DNA of 64,000 nucleotides, from contig NZ_JAJFAX010000009.1 in assembly GCF_019710475.1 (NCBI RefSeq), positions 124,001 through 188,000 on the forward strand, in the 5' to 3' direction. The number at the start of each line of letters is the position of its first letter. The first letter of the stretch is position 1. Under the pieces are notes generated by a model, which worked only from the letters and a program-made list of their open reading frames with translations, was not told where the DNA came from and did not search any database. The DNA comes from Glycomyces sp. TRM65418. GTDB taxonomy: Bacteria; Actinomycetota; Actinomycetes; Mycobacteriales; Micromonosporaceae. This document shows, piece by piece, positions 2,310 to 48,595 of this stretch. The position numbers were made by a program, and so were the translations under genes.

Positions 2310-2579
2310 CGTTCGACGGACGCAGAAGTCAAGGTACTTTCCAGATAAATTTCACGGCGGAAGCCCCTCGAGCCCCTTGCCGAGGCGCCCTCGCACGTCC
2401 GGCCCTTCGGGGCCGACACCACCGCGTTCGCCGTCGGCAACCCTCTGGGCCTTCGAGTCGGAGCCGTTCCGTCAGACCGTATCGGTCGGGGCCCTCTTCG
2501 ACAGGACGCTGCGGAACGGCCGGTCGCGCCGACCTGCCCCGCCCGTTTGACCGCAGGTCGACGCGGGCATGTCTCGGAC

Positions 2580-3962
2580 ATGCCGAATCGCGAGTTCCGC
2601 AACCGGGGCGCCAGGTCAGAGGAGGCCTCCGCGGCATCGATCGTTCGCTCCGAGGCCCTCCCCGTCACCGACGGCCTGCCCGACGACCAGACCTGGCTCG
2701 ACCTGGTGGGCGACGCGCGGTTCGTCCTCCTCGGCGAGGCCTCGCACGGCAGCGCGGAGTGCTACTCCGCCCGGGAGCACCTGACGCGGCGGCTCATCGA
2801 AGAGCAGGGCTTCTGCGCCGTCGCCGTGGAGGCCGACTGGCCCGACGCCTACCGCGTCAACCGGTACGTGCGCGGCGAGGGCCGGCCCGACAGCGCCGAC
2901 GACGCGTTGAGCGGCTTCGAGCGGTTCCCGGTGTGGATGTGGCGCAACACGAGCGTGCTGCGGTTCGCCGAATGGCTCCGCGTCCGCAACGACCGCCACG
3001 AGGGCGAGGAGCACGCGAAGGCCGGCTTCTACGGGCTCGACCTGTACAGCCTCCACCGGTCCGTCCGGGAGGTCATCGCCTACTTGGAGGGCGTCGATCC
3101 GGAAGCGGCGGCACGCGCCAGAGCGCGCTACGCCTGCTTCGACCACAGCGGGCGCGAGGACGGCCAGGCCTACGGTTACGCGGCGGCGTTCGGCGCCGGG
3201 GAATCATGTCAGGAGCAGGTGCTCGAGCAGCTGCTCGACCTCCAGCGGCACGGGCTCGAGGCGGCTCGGCGCGACGGCCTGCTCGCCGAGGACGACCGCT
3301 TCTACGCTGAGCGCAATGCGCAGACCGTCCTGGCGGCCGAGGAGTACTACCGGTCGATGTTCGGTGATTCGGTCGCCTCGTGGAACCTGCGCGACACCCA
3401 CATGGTCGAGACCCTCGACGCGCTCGCCGAGCATCTGAGCGAACAGCGCGGCGAGCCCGCGAAGATCGTGGTGTGGGCGCACAACTCCCACCTCGGCGAC
3501 GCCCGGGCGACCGAACTGGGCCGAGGCGGTGAGCTGAACGTCGGGCAGGTGATGCGCGAACGGCATCCGGGCGAATGCCGCCTGATCGGCTTCACCACCT
3601 ACACCGGCACGGTGACCGCCGCCGACGACTGGGGCGGCCCCGCGCTGCGGAAACAGGTCAGGCCCGGCCTGCCCGGCAGCGTTGAGGAGCTGTTCCACCA
3701 GGTCGGACGGAAGGCGTTCCTGCTCCGGTTCGACCAGGCGCAGCGGGCCGCCGAGGTGCTGCGCGAGGAGCGGCTGGAACGCGCCATCGGCGTCATCTAC
3801 CGCCCCGACACCGAGCGGCACAGCCACTACTTCCACGCCAGGGTCGCCGACCAGTTCGACGCGATCGTCCACATCGATGAGACGCAGGCGGTCGAGCCAC
3901 TGGAGCGGACCGCGCACTGGGACCAGGACGAGCCACCCGAAACTTATCCGTTCGAGGTGTGA
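2580..3962 (+). CDS. Erythromycin esterase family protein
   Basis: A 460-residue protein of the erythromycin esterase (EreA/EreB-like) superfamily. Family hallmarks are [11 protein letters not shown] (residues 50-60, with the key histidine), [13 protein letters not shown] with its glutamate, and [16 protein letters not shown] in the second half. Characterised members hydrolyse the macrolactone ring of erythromycin, but most environmental homologues have unknown substrates, so resistance should not be assumed. The frame is open from TTG 2547; ATG 2580 is chosen because the family homology begins soon after it. It is a monocistronic plus-strand gene facing away from the RpiR operon; 2310-2579 between them holds nothing recognisable. 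Confidence 0.85.
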
Positions 3963-4205: not shown

Positions 4206-4784
4206 TCAGGCGGTGCGGTTCCTGCGGCGCAGCCACCACAGGATCTGCAGCAGTGCGCCGAGTGCGGGCAGGCCCAGGAAGGCCCAGGCGAACAGCTCGT
4301 CCTTCGTCACCCAGTCGATGCCCGGGTAGTAGGAGGTCTCAGAGGAGAGCACGCGCAGTCCGATCCCGATGACCACGCAGGCGAGGGCGGCCGACCCGTA
4401 CGCGATCCTCCTGCCCGGGAGCGGGATCGCGGCGGCGATGAACACCGCCGCGGCGCCGAGGTAGATGAGCATGAATTCGAGCGGCGCGGGCCCGTCGTTG
4501 GCGATCATGTAGGCCAGCACGGTGATGTAGAGCGCGATGGCCCCGCTCAGCAGTGCGCCGCCTTCGGCGAGGTAGGTGTCGAGGCGCGGACGCGGCATCC
4601 GCCACGCGGTCCACAGCAGCCACGGCGCGGGCAGCGCCAGCAACGCGATGAGCACTGCTGTCGTCCCTTGGCCCACGAAGAGCCAGCAGAGGAGGGCCAG
4701 GAACCAGGCGACTGGCGCCGCAACCCAGGTCACGATGGACTTGGCGGTTCCGGGGCGGTCGATGGTGTTCGATGCGCTGTTCAT
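4206..4784 (-). CDS. Multi-pass membrane protein of unknown function
   Basis: A 192-residue protein with about five hydrophobic segments (for example VTWVAAPVAWFLALLCWLFV near the start and AFLGLPALGALLQILWWL at the end) and an Arg-rich C-terminal tail RRRNRTA. No family is recognised. The start is set at ATG 4784, which begins a normal signal-anchor-like N-terminus; a longer version from 4814 would add ten residues without an obvious ribosome site. The 243 bp between it and the esterase gene and the roughly 240 bp upstream of it contain no other gene I can support. Confidence 0.6.
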   Translation of the reverse strand: MNSASNTIDRPGTAKSIVTWVAAPVAWFLALLCWLFVGQGTTAVLIALLALPAPWLLWTAWRMPRPRLDTYLAEGGALLSGAIALYITVLAYMIANDGPAPLEFMLIYLGAAAVFIAAAIPLPGRRIAYGSAALACVVIGIGLRVLSSETSYYPGIDWVTKDELFAWAFLGLPALGALLQILWWLRRRNRTA

Positions 4785-5027
4785 AGGACCAGTCTCGCAA
4801 CCGTGCGCAATCACCCAGCTACCGGATTCGTGCCATCGTTGTAGAGTACCTACAAAGAATGCGCCGTCAATGCCGCTACACCCCCGGTATTTTCTAGGTT
4901 CTCGCCAAACGGATCACCGGGCTGCGGCACCGCGGCTACCGGGCTTTCCAAGCCCGTAGTCGACTACCGGACCTGAGAACCATCGCGAGGCCGGCTACCG
5001 GCACCGTTGCCAGCCCCTGAAGAGCAA

Positions 5028-5058
5028 GTTCGGGCAGTCGGTGACCGACTGCCCGAAC
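5028..5058 (-). terminator. Transcription terminator hairpin downstream of tRNA-Pro
   Basis: A perfect inverted repeat of 15-bp arms around a single central base, 33 bp downstream (minus strand) of the tRNA-Pro gene, followed by a pyrimidine-rich tract (TTGCTCTTC). Position and stability fit termination of the tRNA transcript. Confidence 0.65.
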
Positions 5059-5090
5059 ATGAACCGTATTCACTTTTAGCAGTATCTTGT

Positions 5091-5163
5091 CGGGACGACA
5101 GGATTTGAACCTGCGACCCCCCCGTCCCAAACGGGGTGCGCTACCAAGCTGCGCCACGTCCCG
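5091..5163 (-). tRNA. tRNA-Pro (anticodon TGG)
   Basis: A 73-nt cloverleaf on the minus strand: acceptor arms CGGGACG and CGTCCCG, D-arm GCGC/GCGC, anticodon arm CCCCG-TTTGGGA-CGGGG giving anticodon TGG, and T-arm GCAGG-TTCAAAT-CCTGT. CCA is not encoded. All four stems pair, so the gene should be functional. It marks the left edge of the IS-rich region, and a truncated relative lies at 21722-21757. Confidence 0.95.
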
Positions 5164-5257
5164 ATCTCACCACCACAAAAGCGGCCTCAGCCAGGGTACA
5201 GCACGAGCGCCTCAAAACACCGCCAGGTATTCGGACTGTCTCCGACCCCTTCCGAGC

Positions 5258-5499
5258 CTAAGACCGCAACCTGACCTGCGTGAACGGCATCCCACTACTT
5301 CCTCCAGGGAGGTGACGGCACAGGTTCGGAAGCGCTGGCAAAGCCTTAAGCCGGCTCAGTGTGGGCAGCGTCGTACTTGGTGATCACCTCATCCGAGAGC
5401 TTCCCTCGAACCTCGACCGGCAGGCGATGCTCCTCACCCCAGGGGCGGATGGCGCGATTTCGCTCCTTGCCGCCTCGGTTCGGCGCACTCTTCGCCGCC
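5258..5499. repeat. 242-bp identical repeat, copy 1 (lsr2 3' part plus flank)
   Basis: This segment is identical base for base to 18022-18263 in the same orientation, a spacing of 12764 bp. It contains about 88 bp of lsr2 downstream DNA and the last roughly 154 bp of the lsr2 coding sequence. Here the match ends exactly where a transposase fragment begins (5500). Complete identity implies a recent duplication or ongoing gene conversion. Confidence 0.95.
5346..5499 (-). pseudogene. lsr2 C-terminal fragment (DNA-binding domain only)
   Basis: The minus strand encodes about 50 residues of the C-terminal DNA-binding domain of Lsr2, the actinobacterial nucleoid-associated protein that binds AT-rich DNA in the minor groove. 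The segment (NRAIRPWGEEHRLPVEVRGK, ending KYDAAHTEPA) has the RxWxxE...V..RGK pattern of the Lsr2 domain. The N-terminal dimerisation half is missing: the gene is cut at 5499/5500 by an oppositely oriented transposase fragment. It is the truncated twin of the copy at 18110-18449. Confidence 0.85.
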
Positions 5500-5705
5500 G
5501 CCGGCGCGGCGCCCGAGGCGGCAGGCCACCGGCATTCGACGCCGACCGCTGCAAGGACCGCTCCACCATCGAGCGCACCATCGGCCGCCTCAAACAACAC
5601 CGCTCCCTCGCCACCAGGTACGACAAACTCGCCGTCCGCTACCTCGCGACCGTCCAAGTCGCCATCATCACCAACCGGCTCCGCGACTTACCAAACACGG
5701 CCTAG
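5500..5705 (+). pseudogene. IS5-family transposase C-terminal remnant
   Basis: Plus-strand codons encode GGRPPAFDADRCKDRSTIER followed by TIGRLKQHRSLATRYDKLA, the typical C-terminal catalytic-glutamate region (RNTVERxxxRLKxxR...RYDK) of IS5/IS427-type transposases, ending at TAG 5703-5705. The N-terminal two thirds are absent. The fragment abuts the lsr2 fragment, so an element insertion followed by deletion probably destroyed this lsr2 copy. Confidence 0.8.
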
Positions 5706-5880
5706 GCGGATTGCAGTACTCGCAATCGGCGTGGAGCGCGCAGTCGTGCGCACGGCGGGCCGGGCCGCTGACCACTCGTTGCCAGTTTCGGAACGCGTCG
5801 GCTATTTCACCCGGGGCAAAGCGCTCGTCGCTGTTCTCGAGCCGCACGACGGCGTCCTGGAGGGCACTTGAGGCGCCCGG
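5706..5880 (-). pseudogene. Unidentified coding-like remnant
   Basis: Minus-strand codons between about 5880 and 5706 read as plausible protein (SALQDAVVRLENSDERFAPG, then a Cys/His-containing end CALHADCEYC) with strongly GC-rich third positions. There is no start codon with a ribosome site, and the frame is cut by the transposase fragment at 5705. Probably the 3' part of a deleted gene; family not recognised. Confidence 0.3.
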
Positions 5881-6194
5881 ATTTCTGGGGAAGTCCCGCC
5901 TGCTCCACGAGTAGCGACGGCGGCGGGCTTGCGATGCGCGTACTCGCGCGCGGCCTACGCGGCATCGCCCTTTCTATTGTCGCTCATGGCGACCATTATG
6001 CTGCGCACCGCATGTCGCTCGCAAGGACGGTCCGGGTGATCCCGGGAAGCGCCCGCGCCGCGACGTGCGGCCGGTCTGCGAAAAAGCCACCGGAGCAAGC
6101 GGAACCGCTCTGCAGCGCCGCCGACCCGACGGAAACCTCACGCGGGCAAAGAGGTGCGGCCCGGGTCGTTGACCTCGACACCGGGCCGCCATGT
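5881..6194. other. Gene-free stretch
   Basis: No open frame here shows convincing coding character on either strand. It adjoins the permuted tRNA-like structure and may belong to the same RNA transcript (its trailer on the minus strand). Confidence 0.4.
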
Positions 6195-6240
6195 GCCACA
6201 TAGTCGCCGCTGCGTTCCCTACCGGTAGCCGTTGAGTCTA

Positions 6241-6323
6241 CTGCTAGCATCGCGCTCTACCATTGAACTACCGCCCCATGTGGTGGGGCGGGAGGGATTC
6301 GAACCCCCAACATCGATGTCCCA
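6241..6323 (-). tRNA. Permuted tRNA-like gene: 3' half precedes 5' half
   Basis: Reading the minus strand, a tRNA 3' half comes first (6318 to 6281): anticodon-stem strand CATCG, variable loop ATGTT, T-arm GGGGG-TTCGAAT-CCCTC, acceptor CCGCCCC and encoded ACCA. After only 3 nt the 5' half follows (6277 to 6248): acceptor GGGGCGG, then TA, D-arm GTTC-AATGGTA-GAGC, G, and anticodon-stem strand CGATG. The halves fit one tRNA: 7 of 7 acceptor pairs and 5 of 5 anticodon-stem pairs. The anticodon loop would be built from the outer ends (CT... and ...GGGA), so the anticodon (possibly TGG or AGG) is uncertain. Flanks at 6195-6199/6351-6355 and 6212-6218/6338-6344 are mutually complementary. Alternatives: two broken neighbouring tRNA genes, or a recombination scar. 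Confidence 0.5.
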
Positions 6324-6535
6324 GAGGAACTACTCGCGGAACGCCGCCGCGTGGCGAATGCTGAATCTCGAGCGAGAGTCTCAAGTTTAGCGGTGAACGT
6401 GCGCCCACGACTGCGGGGCTAAATTCCGCAGGGGACCCAATTGTTCCCGCGTTCTACTAGGACTGAATCTCAGTTTCAGCGTTCGGCGCTTTTGGGGCGC
6501 CGTCCCTGTCGCTCAAACAGGGAGTCTGGGTGCGT

Positions 6536-7270
6536 CTATTCGCCGAGCAGGTAGCCGAAGACCTTGTCGCCGATCTTCTCGTCGACGACCTCGGTCCCGT
6601 TGGCCTCCTCCCGGGCGAACTTGACGGCGATCTGGAGCTTCTCGAGCCGCTCCGCGAGCTGCGCGACCCGCTTGGCCGGCGCCGCGCCCGAGAACTTCAC
6701 GGTGGTCCAGTAGCCCACCGGGATGTCCTCGTAGTACACGTCGACCTGCGCCGGGTGCTCCTCGGTCGCCTCGGCCTTGACGTGGTTACGCGGGACCTTC
6801 TTGGCCCGCTGCGTCTTCACCGGATCGGTGGCGTAGCAGTCCGCCGCGTCGTTGAACGTCCACGACTCGGCCGCGTCCAGCACGGGCAGCGCCTTCACGA
6901 ACGCCTGCAGCTCGCCTACCTGCTTCTCCAGGAACAGCAGGTAGGTGACGGGGACGTCTGCGAGGAGCACTTCGCCGTCGATGACGACGTCCGCCGCAGC
7001 GATCGCGTTGGTGCGGTCCTTGGTCGCGGTGACGTCGAAGAGCCGGGTCATCGCCGCCGAGACCTCGCGCAGCTGCTCCTCGACCCGCCGCTGCACCTTG
7101 GTCGACTCGGGCGGCAGCTGTTCGCCGTCCTCGTCCTTGGGCTGGTAGGTCCGGGAGATGCCCGACAGGAGCGGCGCTTTGCCGAGCTCACGTCCGGCAT
7201 CGCCGATCACGCGCGCGGCCTTCGCCTTGACGCTCTTCTCGATCGCGATGATCTGGTTCAACTTGGTCAC
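6536..7270 (-). CDS. Conserved actinobacterial/phage protein (DUF7873-like)
   Basis: A 244-residue protein beginning MTKLNQIIAIEKSVK with the conserved blocks LLSGISRTYQPKDEDGEQLP, TRLFDVTATKD and KVPRNHVKAEATEEHPAQVD. I recognise this as a widespread actinobacterial and actinophage family of unknown function; the DUF number is from memory. No catalytic motif, signal peptide or membrane segment is visible. It is intact and monocistronic. Its 3' end is about 210 bp upstream of the permuted tRNA-like structure on the same strand, so a shared transcript is possible. Confidence 0.7.
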   Translation of the reverse strand: MTKLNQIIAIEKSVKAKAARVIGDAGRELGKAPLLSGISRTYQPKDEDGEQLPPESTKVQRRVEEQLREVSAAMTRLFDVTATKDRTNAIAAADVVIDGEVLLADVPVTYLLFLEKQVGELQAFVKALPVLDAAESWTFNDAADCYATDPVKTQRAKKVPRNHVKAEATEEHPAQVDVYYEDIPVGYWTTVKFSGAAPAKRVAQLAERLEKLQIAVKFAREEANGTEVVDEKIGDKVFGYLLGE

Positions 7271-7497: not shown

Positions 7498-8319
7498 TCA
7501 GCTGGTGGGTTCGGGTGCGGGTTGCTTCGCGGAGGCCGGGTGGGTGTAGCTGCGTTGCACGCCGACTGGGCGGAACCCGAAGGCGTGGTAGAGGTGCTTT
7601 GGGGTGTCGTCGGCTTCGGCGCCGATCATGATCGATCCGGCACCTCGAGCCCGGGCCCGGGCCACGGCGTGGCGCAGCATCTGCGTGGCGGTTCCCATGC
7701 CCCGCTGGCGGGGGTGGACGAATACATCCTCGATGACGCCGATGCCCTCCCCGCTCACCCATACCGCGATCGTCGAGACCGTCGCTCCGTCGCGCTCGGC
7801 GAGGAGGTAGTCCACCCCCGGCCCGAGTGCGCGGCGCAGATCGACGGCCGCACGGGTCTGCTCCAGTGGCCGTGCCGGCACGCCGTGGCGGGCGTCCTCT
7901 TCAAGGTGGTCAATGCGGAACAGGTGCTCGATCGCCTGCCAGTCGGCGTCGCCCTCAGCCGCCCGCGTGTCGAGGCCGTGTGGTTCGGGGATGGTGGTGG
8001 TGGCCGGCAGTGCGAGAAGGAGCAGGTGCTCGACAGTCCAGTCGGCGAGGGCGACAGCGGCTTCGACCGGGGGCGGGGTGTCGGTGTCGATGACCAGCCG
8101 TGCGGGCAAGGCGGTGCTGTGGTCCGTCACAATGGCCGACGCGGCTGCCCTGTCGCGGACCCGGGTGATGAAGTTGCCCAGCGCATGGCCCGGTGCGGTC
8201 GGGTGGTGGACGATCTCGAATCCTGCCTGTGCGCTGATGCTCGCCCCGAGCGACCAGAATGCCGTCGCAGTGCGTTCGAACAGCGATGATTCCGTCAAGT
8301 CGTGGGCATGAGAGTTCAT
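7498..8319 (-). CDS. GNAT-family N-acetyltransferase
   Basis: A 273-residue protein whose C-terminal half carries the GNAT acetyl-CoA loop (VFVHPRQRGMGTATQMLRHA) and a terminal motif LYHAFGFRPVGVQRSYTHP. The N-terminal half (about 150 residues) matches no family I recognise and may set the substrate. Start ATG 8319 is chosen over the upstream frame opening at 8346. Its stop codon lies inside the IS-type terminal repeat at 7489, so the gene ends exactly at the boundary of the composite unit, and it is divided from the IS transposase by only about 45 bp. It is best seen as cargo. Substrate unknown. Confidence 0.7.
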   Translation of the reverse strand: MNSHAHDLTESSLFERTATAFWSLGASISAQAGFEIVHHPTAPGHALGNFITRVRDRAAASAIVTDHSTALPARLVIDTDTPPPVEAAVALADWTVEHLLLLALPATTTIPEPHGLDTRAAEGDADWQAIEHLFRIDHLEEDARHGVPARPLEQTRAAVDLRRALGPGVDYLLAERDGATVSTIAVWVSGEGIGVIEDVFVHPRQRGMGTATQMLRHAVARARARGAGSIMIGAEADDTPKHLYHAFGFRPVGVQRSYTHPASAKQPAPEPTS

Positions 8320-9199
8320 TCGCTCGATGGTAGTGCGACACCGCATGCCTCAGAGCTGCGCAGTGAGAGCTTGCCGCAGTTGGTGAGTTTCTTGTAGCAG
8401 GTGATGGCTGCGGCGAGGGCGAGGAATGCGGCGAAGAGGTGGCCGTGGCGTTCGTATCGGAGGGTGAGGCGGCGGTAGCCGCCGAGCCAGGCGATGGTGC
8501 GTTCGATCGCCCACCGGTGGCGGCCGAGTCTGGCTGAGGATTCGATGCCGCGGCGGACGATGCGGTCGCCGATACGCCGCTCGCGCAGGGCCCAGTGGCA
8601 GTCGGGGATGTCGTAGGCCTTGTCCGCGTGGAGCTTCGCAGGCTTGCGGCGCCGGGGCCCGCGCCGGGACCGGATCTTGGGGATGCCCTGCACCAGCGGC
8701 TCCAAGGCCTGTGAGTCGTGAAGATTGGCCGCTGAAATACCCAATGCGAGTGGCAGGCCGTTCCGGTCGGTGAGGACGTGGATCTTCGAGCCCGCCTTAC
8801 CTCGATCGACCGGGTTTGGGCCGGTCAGCGATCCCCCTTTTTAGCGCGCATACTCGCGGCGTCGACGATCGCCCGCGACCAGTCGATCTCCCCGGCGGCG
8901 CCGAGCCGGTCGAGTACGGCCCGGTGGAGTTTCGCCCATAGCGCGGCTTCGGACCACTCGGTGAAGCGCCGGTGCGCGGTCTGGTGCGAGACGCCGAAGT
9001 CCGGCGGCAGATGCCGCCACGCGCACCTGCTGGTCAGCACGAACACGATCGCACAGAACACCGCCCGGTCATCGGCCCGCGGGATCCCACCGCCTTGGAC
9101 GCGTTTCGGCGAAGCCGGTATCAACGGCTCGACGATCTCCCAGAGCCCATCGGGTACAAGACGTTTGGCGAACTCATCCACATGCGAATAATTCCACAT
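8316..9199 (-). pseudogene. IS5-family DDE transposase, two overlapping frames
   Basis: The N-terminal frame (9199 to 8825) contains VFCAIVFVLTSRCAWRHLPP and the first catalytic aspartate in AIVDAASMRAKKGD. The second frame continues with the expected GPNP...GSKIHVLTDRNG region, then LHADKAYDIPDCHWALRER (second Asp) and HRWAIERTIAWLGGYRRL (Glu). The split is typical of IS5 elements that need a programmed frameshift, so the enzyme may still be made. The C-terminus reads through the degraded left terminus and adds about 20 residues (CGKLSLRSSEACGVALPSSE) compared with the copy ending at 10227, which suggests decay. Confidence 0.8.
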
Positions 9200-9629: not shown

Positions 9630-9975
9630 CGAGCCTCCAGGATCGTCTCGAAAACGGCATTGCCGTTGGACTTGATTTGATAGACAGCATACCCACTGGT
9701 GCCGATCGACACCAGCACACGATGACTACGCGCACTGTCCGGGATCGTCCCCTCAGGGAATCCTGATTCCTCGATCTGCTTACTCAAATCACGAACCGCC
9801 TGGCGCGCGTCACTAATACTCGAAAAACCACCGCGCTCAGCCCGAGGCAAGTCGATATGACCCATGTTACTGTTCACGACTTTTGTCGGAACGTCGCCCG
9901 CTCCGGGGACGCAGGGTAGATCCTCATTATGAACCAGGACCGACGCGGAACCGGCAAGTACATAGTAGGTGCGGT
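9626..9975 (-). pseudogene. Polymorphic toxin C-terminal tip after a Hint domain (truncated)
   Basis: The minus strand encodes about 115 residues. The first part, RTYYVLAGSASVLVHNEDLP, is the signature end of a Hint/pretoxin domain (usually TYYVLAG..PVLVHN). It is followed by roughly 90 residues of a variable toxin module ending VLVSIGTSGYAVYQIKSNGN and VFETILEAR. The enormous N-terminal carrier expected for such proteins is missing: the frame is cut at 9975/9976 by the transposase 3' fragment. The alternating beta-strand end resembles small BECR-type RNase tips, but that is a guess. It overlaps the immunity-like gene by 4 bp. Confidence 0.65.
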
Positions 9976-10236
9976 GCGGACAAGGCCTACGACATCCCTG
10001 ACTGCCACCGGACACTGCGTGAACGGCGTATCGGTGATCGCATCGCCCGCCGCGGCATCGAATCCTCAGCCAGACTCGGCCGCCACCGCTGGGCGATCGA
10101 ACGCACCATCGCCTGGCTCGGCGGCTATCGCCGCCTGACCCTCCGATACGAACGCCACGGCCACCTCTTCGCCGCATTCCTCGCCCTCGCCGCAGCCATC
10201 ACCTGCTACAAGAAACTCACCAACTGAGACACGCTC
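9976..10236 (+). pseudogene. IS5-family transposase 3' fragment with right terminus
   Basis: Plus-strand codons encode DKAYDIPDCHRTLRERRIGD through FLALAAAITCYKKLTN, nearly identical to the C-terminal half of the transposase at 8316-9199 but in opposite orientation, with its proper stop inside the terminal repeat (CTGAGACACGCTC, to 10236). The 5' part is missing; the junction at 9976 falls inside the toxin gene, which it truncates. Confidence 0.85.
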
Positions 10237-10314: not shown

Positions 10315-10731
10315 TCAGGCGTCGGTGTGCGACCGTGCATTCTTGTCTGCCAAGACGACGGCGCAGAGGTTCCACGTCATGCCTATGAGGAAGGCGACGA
10401 GCGGGACGCCTTCCAGGTACCCGAAACCGCAGAGCCCCAGTGAGCCGAGTGCGGCCACCGGCGCTAGAGCGTACAGAGCGGCGGTTCGCAGGTGGAGGGC
10501 ACGAGCCAGCACCGGGCCGATGACCATTGCAGTCACAGGGGCTACGAGCAATCCGACGAGCGCGGGCTCGTATCCCTCCCAGATGCTCTCGGGCTTAGAA
10601 GAGGATCCGGACGCGTTCCAGAAGGGCAGGAACACCAGGGCGATAGTCAGCGCTTGTGCTACCCAGATCCCGAGCGCGGCGACGAACGCTGCCTTGCCGG
10701 TCCGTGTAGGGCGTTGTTCGTCTTCTGTCAC
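10315..10731 (-). CDS. Small integral membrane protein, IS cargo
   Basis: A 138-residue protein with four hydrophobic segments (AAFVAALGIWVAQALTIALV, ALVGLLVAPVTAMVIGPVLA, AALYALAPVAALGSLGLCG, VPLVAFLIGMTWNLCAVVLA). No family is recognised. It lies wholly between the inverted ends of the element at 10236-11330 and opposite in strand to the transposase remnant. It is intact, with a short charged N-terminus (MTEDEQRPTRTGK). Confidence 0.55.
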   Translation of the reverse strand: MTEDEQRPTRTGKAAFVAALGIWVAQALTIALVFLPFWNASGSSSKPESIWEGYEPALVGLLVAPVTAMVIGPVLARALHLRTAALYALAPVAALGSLGLCGFGYLEGVPLVAFLIGMTWNLCAVVLADKNARSHTDA

Positions 10732-10823
10732 AACAGAACACTACCGCGGTCAGCCGATGCCGACCGGCTCGCAGCGAGCTGCGACGGGTGTCCAGGTCCT
10801 GGTGGCGCGCATGGGATCATGCC

Positions 10824-11261
10824 TGCGTGGTGGGTGTGATCAGCGCGGCGGACGAGTCGAAGAACTACCGTTACTCCACCAACCACCAGGTCGTCATCGA
10901 CGCCGATACCCAACTCGTGGTCGTCGTCGGCACGCCCCTGCCCGGGGAACCGCAACGACTCCAAGGCGTTCGGCGAGTCCGGCGTTGACGAGGCGACCCG
11001 CCCCGCCACTGTCATCGCCGATGGGGGCTACCCGGGCACCAGGGCGGTCATCCCTCCCGCCGCAAGAAGAAAGACGAGCCACTGGCGGGACGGAAAGAGG
11101 CGCACAACGCCCCGCACCGCCACGTAAGGGCACGGGTCGAGCACACCTTCGCGAAATCGAAGCGCTGGAACGTGCTGCGCGACTGCCGTCTCCGCGGAGA
11201 CGGATCAGCCGAGGCCATGGCTGGCATCGCCCGGCTCTACAACCTCACTCTCGGCAGCTGA
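10824..11261 (+). pseudogene. Frameshifted IS5-family transposase remnant
   Basis: Conserved pieces appear in order but in different frames: RYSTNHQVVIDADTQLVVVV and GTPLPG; then VIADGGYPGT with the second catalytic Asp; then RARVEHTFAK and RWNVLRDCRLRGDGSAEAMA and GIARLYNLTL, ending at TGA 11259-11261. This order is that of a common Streptomyces-type DDE transposase (first part about 100 residues missing). At least two frameshifts make it inactive. Confidence 0.75.
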
Positions 11262-11330
11262 CCCGCCCCCGACCGGCAGGAACTCAGTCTTCGGTCATAC
11301 GCCCAGAACCACTTCCGGGCCAGCCCTTAG

Positions 11331-12139
11331 GCACAGCGATACGAGTCGGATGCGTGTGGCTGAACGCTGTCCCGTAAGTTGACCGGACATCATTGTCTCC
11401 CAGGCATGTTCAATCACCTGGGCCGAGGACACTCGGTTCCTTCGGGACTGATCGGTCGATACCATCGATTCCACCCCTGGACTGCCTCCAGATCGGACCG
11501 ATGATGGCTCAAGAGGACTCGGCTGACGGACCCGCACCGGTTCGGCCGGGCGACCTGGGGCGCCGACTGCGCGTTCACCGGCAGCATCGCGGTACGGCCG
11601 CTCCCATCGTCCTCGCCTCAGGGGCGGCTACGTTCATCCTGCTCCTCCTACCCGCAGGCCTGGACGCGCTTGACGTCTTGCGGTGGGCGGCCGTGCTCAT
11701 TCCGCTCGGCATGGCCTCCAACCGCCGCGCGCCTGTCCCCGGACCCCACGGCAGACTGCGGATCCCCGTCTACGAGCGCGGCGTTCGCGTGGAACCCGAA
11801 TGCGGGCGACCCACCGTGGTGGACCCGGTCACCATCGTCACCGTCACCGGAGCCGCCTACCAACGCGGTCGCCCAAGCCCGCGACACGGTGGACCGACAA
11901 ACACCACCGCACGACGGAGGACACACCGATTAACGCGTTCAGCGCCCGCAGCTCGCTCAAGCGTGTCCTCGTCAACGGTGACACCTCCAGGGCGCCGTCC
12001 TGGGCGCGCATGGTTACCGCCGGAGTGGTCGCCCTGGCGCTTGCGGGGGGCTACCTGTGGCGGTTCCCTCCATCGCCTGCCGCGATGCCCGAGAACCTCG
12101 GGCATCTGGAGCGGTTCTGCTCGGACGCGGACCGGGTCT
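11331..12139 (+). other. Decayed region with remnants of small membrane-protein genes
   Basis: From ATG 11501 plus-strand codons read plausibly for about 120 residues (MMAQEDSADGPAPVRPGDLG, then a hydrophobic pair around VLASGAATFILLLLPAGLDA and RWAAVLIPLGMASN). Around 11950-12140 another frame reads as a second membrane-anchored start (MVTAGVVALALAGGYLWRFP...). Neither has a convincing end, and the second is cut by the sigma-factor remnant. Probably two eroded genes; function unknown. Confidence 0.3.
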
Positions 12140-48206: not shown

Positions 48207-48595
48207 GGAACGAGATGGCCAGGCGGCCGCGGCGGATGTGGGAGACCACAGCCGGCGAGGAACGTCCGGACTCCACAGGGCAGGGTGGTTGCCAACGGCA
48301 ACCCGGGGCGACCCGCGGGACAGTGCCACAGAAAACAGACCGCCGGCTTCGGCCGGTAAGGGTGAAACGGTGGTGTAAGAGACCACCAGCGCCGTCGGTG
48401 ACGGCGGCGGCTCGGTAAACCCCACCCGGAGCAAGGTCAAGAGGAGCCGCGAGGCTCTGCGTGAAGGTTCGAGGGCGGCCCGCCCGAGTTCGCGAGAGCG
48501 CCTTCACGGGTAGACCGCTCGAGCGCGTCAGCGATGGCGCGCCTAGATGGATGGCCGCTCAACGACAGAATCCGGCGTATCGGCCATCTCGTTCC
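48207..48595 (+). ncRNA. rnpB: RNase P RNA (bacterial class A)
   Basis: About 389 nt. The 5' strand GGAACGAGATGGCC pairs with the 3' strand GGCCATCTCGTTCC (P1). Universally conserved pieces are present: GAGGAACGTCCGGACTCCAC, CAGGGTGGTTGCCAACGGCA with CCCGGGG-like continuation, GTGAAACGGTGGTGTAAGAG ACCACCAGC, GTAAACCCCACCCGGAGCAA and the 3' GACAGAATCCGGCGTAT. The RNA is the catalytic subunit that trims tRNA 5' leaders. It is complete; the conjugative element begins directly downstream. Confidence 0.95.

Follow-up and report, generated by a model that had tools for sequence, protein, structure and literature searches.

A gene of the DUF7873 protein family and, directly downstream of it, a structured noncoding RNA element built around permuted tRNA mimics occur together in actinobacterial chromosomes and in phages, including genomes in which Ro60 is absent. 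Y RNAs are thought of as partners of Ro60; here the mimic module is tied to a different protein family. We consider it reasonably probable that the two constitute a new class of ribonucleoprotein (RNP), in which DUF7873 and a dedicated tandem-mimic RNA would act, independently of Ro60, on the tRNA-handling machinery; this class would be found in phages of actinobacteria, proteobacteria and cyanobacteria and would have been kept in actinobacterial chromosomes.

Layout of the locus

The window (the whole stretch of Glycomyces DNA that was analysed, 64,000 nt) carries the locus on its minus strand. Read from 6355 to 6195, the strand presents a T-arm, an acceptor 3' strand with ACCA, three bases, an acceptor 5' strand and a D-arm, with nested helices flanking this core. 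A sequence-only reading of these positions had described them as a circularly permuted tRNA gene with structured flanks, and the elements it named are indeed there: the acceptor strands (6291-6285 with 6277-6271) form 7 of 7 pairs, the stem 6318-6314 / 6252-6248 forms 5 of 5, the T-arm (6308-6292) and D-arm (6268-6254) are in place, and ACCA at 6284-6281 is followed by CAT before the acceptor 5' strand. Where that reading erred was in making these pairs depend on a joining of the halves. A short loop closes the acceptor, and the two strands of the "anticodon" stem meet across it while the strand is still in one piece, so nothing has to be joined. It had also placed no gene in the surrounding few hundred bases, where in fact the DUF7873 gene ends 180 nt upstream of 6195-6355 and the space between the two is itself occupied by a structured unit (6485-6356, 55.7 bits). 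The features of the locus are as follows, R1 being our covariance model of unit A.

6536-7270, minus strand: DUF7873 protein gene, 244 aa, the proposed protein partner (Pfam PF25283; sole conserved neighbour in 70 genome loci)
6504-6522, minus strand: hairpin CCCTG...CAGGG directly 3' of the stop codon (from the sequence; a comparable hairpin is visible in Glycomyces relatives)
6485-6501, minus strand: small hairpin GGCGC...GCGCC (from the sequence)
6356-6485, minus strand: unit A of the RNA, arms enclosing tRNA mimic 1, which is degenerate in the window (R1, 55.7 bits, E 9.1e-13)
6463-6480, minus strand: left arm of unit A, a six-base repeat with U every 6 nt (sequence; spacing test in relatives)
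6360-6385, minus strand: right arm of unit A, consensus CUCAGACUCUCGCUC...UCAGC (sequence, covariance model, spacing test)
6195-6355, minus strand: unit B of the RNA, the stem and tRNA mimic 2 found by the sequence-only reading (YrlA match, covariation)
6292-6308, minus strand: T-arm of mimic 2 (YrlA alignment, Glycomyces alignment)
6285-6291, minus strand: acceptor 3' strand of mimic 2, then ACCA at 6284-6281 (sequence, Glycomyces alignment)
6271-6277, minus strand: acceptor 5' strand of mimic 2, 7/7 pairs with 6291-6285 (sequence, Glycomyces alignment)
6254-6268, minus strand: D-arm of mimic 2 (YrlA alignment, Glycomyces alignment)
6248-6252, minus strand: 3' strand of the anticodon-like stem, pairing with 6318-6314 and running into the long stem without an anticodon loop (Glycomyces alignment)
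6225-6228, minus strand: 3' strand CTAC of a stem helix, pairing with GTAG at 6333-6330 (Glycomyces alignment)
6195-6199, minus strand: 3' strand GTGGC of the closing helix, pairing with 6355-6351 (Glycomyces alignment)
6156-6189, minus strand: GC-rich hairpin closing the conserved region, a possible terminator (sequence; loop GAGGTCAAC with altered closing pairs in relatives)

The last of these hairpins received no call in a promoter/terminator scan. In relatives the pattern downstream of DUF7873 recurs as a series of hairpins, a left arm (e.g. GCTGAAACTGA), a permuted mimic and a right arm (e.g. CTCAGACTCTCGCTCCAGATTCAGC), and continues after the right arm with a second mimic set within a longer stem and then a GC-rich hairpin. 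The only gene that ARAGORN calls in the whole window is a tRNA-Pro at 5163-5089.

Other parts of the window hold an erythromycin esterase family protein (2547-3962, plus strand; Pfam PF05139, 437.8 bits) and a class A RNase P RNA (48211-48595, plus strand; Rfam RF00010, 275.6 bits). Two frames, 8316-9199 (minus strand) and 9883-10227 (plus strand), may be pieces of an IS5-type transposase, which they resemble; within them, one part is present twice.

Linkage of the RNA to DUF7873

From 239 loci, 51 were dropped for having less than 400 nt downstream, for fewer than 200 matched residues or as near-duplicates, leaving 188 distinct loci, the window among them, with 110 from genomes, 71 from viral contigs and 6 from named phages. 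Of these 188, 175 have one or more permuted mimics within 800 nt downstream of DUF7873 (109/110 genome loci, 60/71 viral contigs, 5/6 named phages and the window itself); in the controls, a mimic is seen in 5 of 185 stretches upstream of the gene and in 1 of 188 downstream stretches whose bases were shuffled. The permuted order first read from the window alone is thus well beyond chance. One mimic is found at 58 loci, two at 112 and three at 5, so that 117 loci have at least two. Among the 13 loci missed by this pattern search, R1 recovers units in 8 at E below 1e-6, downstream of the gene in L056, L090, L110, L119, L132, L160 and L164, and upstream of it in L014, where units at 4626-4913 (114.6 and 31.0 bits) precede DUF7873 at 5001-5729. 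Weak R1 matches are seen in L115 and L145, and no convincing one in L085, L117 or L144; L085 shows a permuted mimic by eye.

The same association emerges when R1 is run over 200 genomes. All 84 strong matches (E up to 3e-19) lie downstream of DUF7873 on the same strand, at a distance of 31-402 nt (median 53), none falls in a genome without DUF7873, and 92 of the 94 DUF7873 places have a listed R1 match within 1 kb. The 66 weaker matches listed next (E 7.6e-12 to 4.9e-7) comprise 45 at DUF7873, 15 within 2.5 kb of TROVE, the Ro60 gene, and 6 near neither gene, these last being 4 tandem tRNA genes and 2 orphan-like mimics from one genome. At E up to 0.01, matches appear in 147 of the 200 genomes, the weak ones covering the tRNA-like core only and including YrlA beside TROVE as well as tandem tRNA genes. 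The R1 matches by TROVE are classic Ro-YrlA and provide a positive control for the mimic core.

The two orphan mimics, alike and both permuted, belong to genome G115 (L258:2574-2634, plus strand; L260:2608-2671, minus strand) and have no listed DUF7873 or TROVE nearby. They share an upstream stretch like CCCGGTGCGCAGGC..CGGTTACTT, the frames scanned beside them gave no hint of a partner, and they are possibly a third Y-RNA context.

Neighbour clustering, carried out on genome loci with frames of at least 120 aa, found no other conserved gene among the 70 loci: the next best family occurs in 14, and a second cluster, present at 69 loci, is the antisense shadow frame of DUF7873. Loss of the protein need not take the RNA with it, at least in the short term: in G067 (L248:4088-4500) DUF7873 is cut to about 33 C-terminal residues and unit A (124.8 bits) and the start of unit B are kept.

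The protein encoded in the window is a clear member of Pfam DUF7873 (PF25283; 372.4 bits against a cut-off of 27), an entry that gives no function, and the family name appeared in no paper of the library searched. DUF7873 had no PADLOC, NCBIfam or PHROGs match, a PDB sequence search returned nothing clear (best E 0.096), and fold searches with the predicted structure gave no row with E under 0.001 and no clear relative, a result that does not show a new fold. The best of five structure models is confident (92.9), the others scoring 78.2 to 62.2. The protein is slightly acidic (pI 5.25 in the window, median 6.2 in 94 proteins) and is not an obvious RNA-binding protein.

DUF7873 is present in 93 of 200 genomes of the same bacterial family and in 7 of 396 from the phylum, own genome included, in 73 of 50,697 phage records and in 4 plasmid records, and also in viral and genome contigs; the contigs of loci L168-L179 are from Glycomyces and encode proteins 86-90% identical to that of the window. 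In a midpoint-rooted tree of 94 DUF7873 proteins, 2 parsimony changes suffice to separate genome from viral sequences, and the genome clade (support 0.87) includes 3 viral tips. This tree suggests a long residence in chromosomes, although the near-monophyly of the genome copies is partly due to choice, because the genome loci in it are the best 80 of 564, those nearest to the window.

In the named phages, the pattern search found two mimics for Arthrobacter, Gordonia and Klebsiella and one for Pseudanabaena and Rhizobium; it found none in the Vibrio phage, where one was seen by eye only. Direct blastn of the region against phages returned nothing. Genes for tRNAs lie within 3 kb of 46 of 80 viral loci (280 tRNAs in 513 kb; 34 of the 80 have none) and within 5 kb of 7 of 80 genome loci, the counts coming from ARAGORN, which may miscall mimics as tRNAs.

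Structure of the two units

Across 17 Glycomyces loci, the anticodon-like stem (6318-6314 / 6252-6248) is paired in 98.8% of cells with 2 covarying pairs, and a further helix that the sequence-only reading had not named (6333-6330 / 6228-6225) is 95.6% paired with 3 of its 4 pairs covarying. The outer flanks that it had paired, 6355-6351 with 6199-6195, form 5 of 5 pairs in the window and are paired in 100% of cells as a closing helix; as 4 of these 5 pairs are invariant and the strands are part of the motif by which the Glycomyces stretch was located, the evidence comes down to a single compensated pair, which changes from G-C to U-A in one locus. Its proposal of an inner flanking helix, 6344-6338 / 6218-6212, holds for the window (7/7 pairs) and less well for the relatives, where the helix aligns badly and 51.9% of cells are paired, yet 4 of 7 pairs show compensated changes.

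The wider alignments extend this picture to both units. Compensated changes affect 25 of 27 consensus pairs of unit B in 63 sequences (93.6% of cells paired; a covariation score reached by 0 of 500 shuffles) and 14 of 16 pairs of unit A in 65 sequences. These figures overstate the pairing percentages and, in part, the covariation, because the loci were chosen with acceptor and T-stem pairing required and the structures were derived with RNAalifold from the same rows, one of the two covariation alignments also including the window. The long stem joining the two ends of unit B is present, and its helices covary in the 63 sequences. A test in which acceptor pairing was not required, asking only for a T-arm and the nearest D-arm (T-stem pairing was still required), found the acceptor strands paired at 7 of 7 positions in 262 of 279 cases from 174 loci; swapping partners between loci gave full acceptor pairing in 6.2%.

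The stem continues past the "anticodon" stem in the manner of a Y RNA, and there is no anticodon loop at which halves could meet. An encoded NCCA after the acceptor is seen in 55 of 117 copies of unit A and in 47 of 117 of unit B, less than half in either, and so is not required. Conservation in relatives, the check that the sequence-only reading had proposed, is clearly confirmed, though what is conserved is a noncoding RNA linked to DUF7873. The permuted order and the structured flanks are conserved, so the site is not a decay scar; the tRNA gene in need of joining is not borne out, given the continuing stem and the silence of ARAGORN.

Mimic 1 has lost its canonical arms in the window and looks similarly degenerate by eye in four more of the 17 Glycomyces loci (L063, L068, L070 and L076), whose genomes are among those without a strong R1 match. 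At L078, unit A has no mimic 1 and its arms, about 55-135 nt after the DUF7873 stop, are split by a short stretch. Two mimics are thus not strictly required.

The arms of unit A carry a further regularity, a U at every sixth position, in 42 of 115 left arms (1.4 when shuffled) and 88 of 117 right arms (5.9 when shuffled), compared with 0 and 19 of 117 for the two arms of unit B (1.5 and 8.1 when shuffled), counts that are inflated by the relatedness of the sequences. The selection of the arms biases their column compositions; the spacing test is free of such bias. We regard the track in unit A as real, and it could be a protein-binding track. Peptide coding was considered for these arms, which can be read as alternating hydrophobic codons (e.g. 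KLKLRF), and was rejected: the frame is not kept between arms, and the left-right offset is spread 38:28:24 over the three phases (90 loci), hence there is no continuous reading frame.

Mechanism, alternatives and known systems

We suggest that the locus is a two-part cassette, in which the DUF7873 gene and a noncoding RNA of about 330 nt immediately downstream are probably carried on the same transcript. The RNA domains, usually two in tandem and permuted as in YrlA, would mimic the L-shaped top of tRNA, and DUF7873 would, by analogy, take the place of Ro60/Rsr in classic Y RNPs. Its binding sites would be the parts that do not resemble tRNA: in unit A the arms with their six-base repeat, in unit B the long stem. 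The exposed tRNA elbows would attract tRNA-handling enzymes, be they modification enzymes, RNase P, PNPase or tRNA-cleaving nucleases, and the particle would serve either to tether one of these enzymes or, as bait, to compete for it. Its role in phages might be to safeguard or adjust the pool of tRNAs around the phage's own tRNA genes. YrlA offers precedents for these steps. In an excerpt of a review, its stem holds Rsr, its tRNA-like part binds PNPase, and DusA and TruB modify that part (PMC8394870); according to an excerpt of a research paper, the tRNA-like part may compete for an anticodon nuclease (PMC7790460). That DUF7873 and the tandem tRNA-mimic RNA form a Ro-independent, Y-RNA-like particle engaging tRNA-handling enzymes is a proposal to which we give slightly better than even chances. 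It points to more than one protein having been paired with mimicry of the tRNA elbow, and it would give DUF7873, a family without an assigned function, its first testable function. The cassette is also a possible phage device for handling tRNAs, its phage copies being frequent neighbours of tRNA genes. Being small and present in harmless, culturable hosts, it is directly testable.

It is conceivable, though in our view unlikely, that the RNA works on its own as a decoy, luring tRNA-cleaving nucleases or other enzymes of tRNA, with DUF7873 acting separately. The frequent position of phage copies among tRNA genes, the persistence of the RNA beside the decayed DUF7873 of G067 and the decoy role proposed for YrlA in the excerpted paper (PMC7790460) are all compatible with this. 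However, the near-perfect linkage to DUF7873, in actinobacteria and in distant phages, and the conservation of arms and stems foreign to tRNA argue for a shared partner.

A second alternative is that the RNA is an ordinary YrlA Y RNA working with Ro60/Rsr, with DUF7873 a mere neighbour. A permissive Rfam search of 5700-6700 does return YrlA (RF02553) as its best match (minus strand 6335-6223, 36.0 bits, E 5.6e-6), the permuted module is the same, and the alignment of unit B spans the full model, 1-114. This score misses the YrlA gathering threshold of 69 bits, and Rfam run on the whole window at gathering thresholds gave no YrlA match anywhere and nothing at 6195-6355. YrlA is matched at E up to 0.01 in 5 of 9 DUF7873 loci scanned (31-46 bits), the other four having none, and TROVE loci score just as low, with 34-40 bits at 5 of the 6. 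R1 mimics also lie beside TROVE, as 15 of the 66 listed weaker matches attest, and TROVE, found in 61 of the 200 genomes, accompanies DUF7873 in 41, more than expected (odds ratio 3.4, p 1e-4). Against an ordinary YrlA stand the own genome, 99.97% complete, which has no Ro60/TROVE gene, and the 52 of 93 DUF7873 genomes that lack TROVE. Of 68 TROVE places (three extra rows of already listed genes left out), none lies on one contig with a DUF7873 gene at 20 kb or less, in assemblies of which many are in pieces, whereas the strong R1 matches all lie beside DUF7873; and among 30 phage or viral records with DUF7873, of which some are fragments, 4 have TROVE. We therefore hold this alternative to be distinctly unlikely.

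One phage appears to carry both systems: in Rhizobium phage L087, a TROVE gene starting at 11667 is directly preceded by R1 mimics (10722-11587), which are about 4-5 kb away from the DUF7873 unit.

The element might also belong to the DUF7873 mRNA as a structured 3' UTR, with a part in regulating DUF7873 or in terminating the transcript and with the mimics as processing sites for RNase P. Its position nearly always directly downstream of the gene (the median of 53 nt to a strong R1 match) fits such a role, and tRNA-like 5' ends are typical RNase P signals. However, a processing signal would not call for two complete domains whose elbows, arms and stems are conserved, and the RNA remains where DUF7873 is nearly gone (G067) and lies upstream of it in L014, so that we find this possibility very unlikely. 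As for a working tRNA made by joining, at the anticodon loop, the halves of a circularly permuted gene, the complete acceptor, T and D arms, the encoded ACCA and the permuted tRNAs described for algae and archaea speak for it, but the "anticodon" stem that runs on into a covarying stem, the presence of NCCA in under half of the copies, the absence of any ARAGORN tRNA or tmRNA call at 6195-6355 and a best match to YrlA leave it hardly any probability.

A permuted group I intron was rejected. The sequence-only reading had wondered about permuted self-splicing intron halves, and the motifs AGACTCAACGG and GATTCAGTCC have what we take to be a likeness to group I R and S elements; the ten matches that Rfam gives for 5700-6700 up to E 10 include no intron, group I (RF00028) or other, and the motif order did not fit. 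The permuted two-piece tmRNA (RF04321) shares with the window RNA a T-arm and acceptor 3' strand that precede the acceptor 5' strand. Its match is weak and partial (23.2 bits against a gathering threshold of 47, model 36-95 of 213), as is that of beta-tmRNA in the same search of 5700-6700 (20.6 bits), and is confined to the T-arm and acceptor, whereas the window RNA has a canonical D-arm; with no tmRNA called by ARAGORN, this candidate too was rejected. The circularly permuted tRNA genes of algae and archaea likewise have the 3' half before the 5' half, but the RNA described here has no anticodon loop, continues outward as a stem and is found in bacteria and phages.

A literature search yielded no paper that we recognised as describing this RNA, an earlier mention in the main YrlA surveys being still possible. 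The closest relative is YrlA with Rsr/Ro60, which, in the excerpted review, has the same permuted tRNA-like module of T-arm, closed acceptor and D-arm, a long basal stem and a noncoding nature (PMC8394870). In contrast to YrlA, the RNA of the window type usually has two tandem mimics, bears U-every-6 arms in unit A, has DUF7873 in place of rsr as its partner gene and scores below the family threshold. It is a variant of the Y-RNA-like tRNA mimics that we set apart from YrlA itself, because it falls short of that threshold and lacks the link to Ro60.
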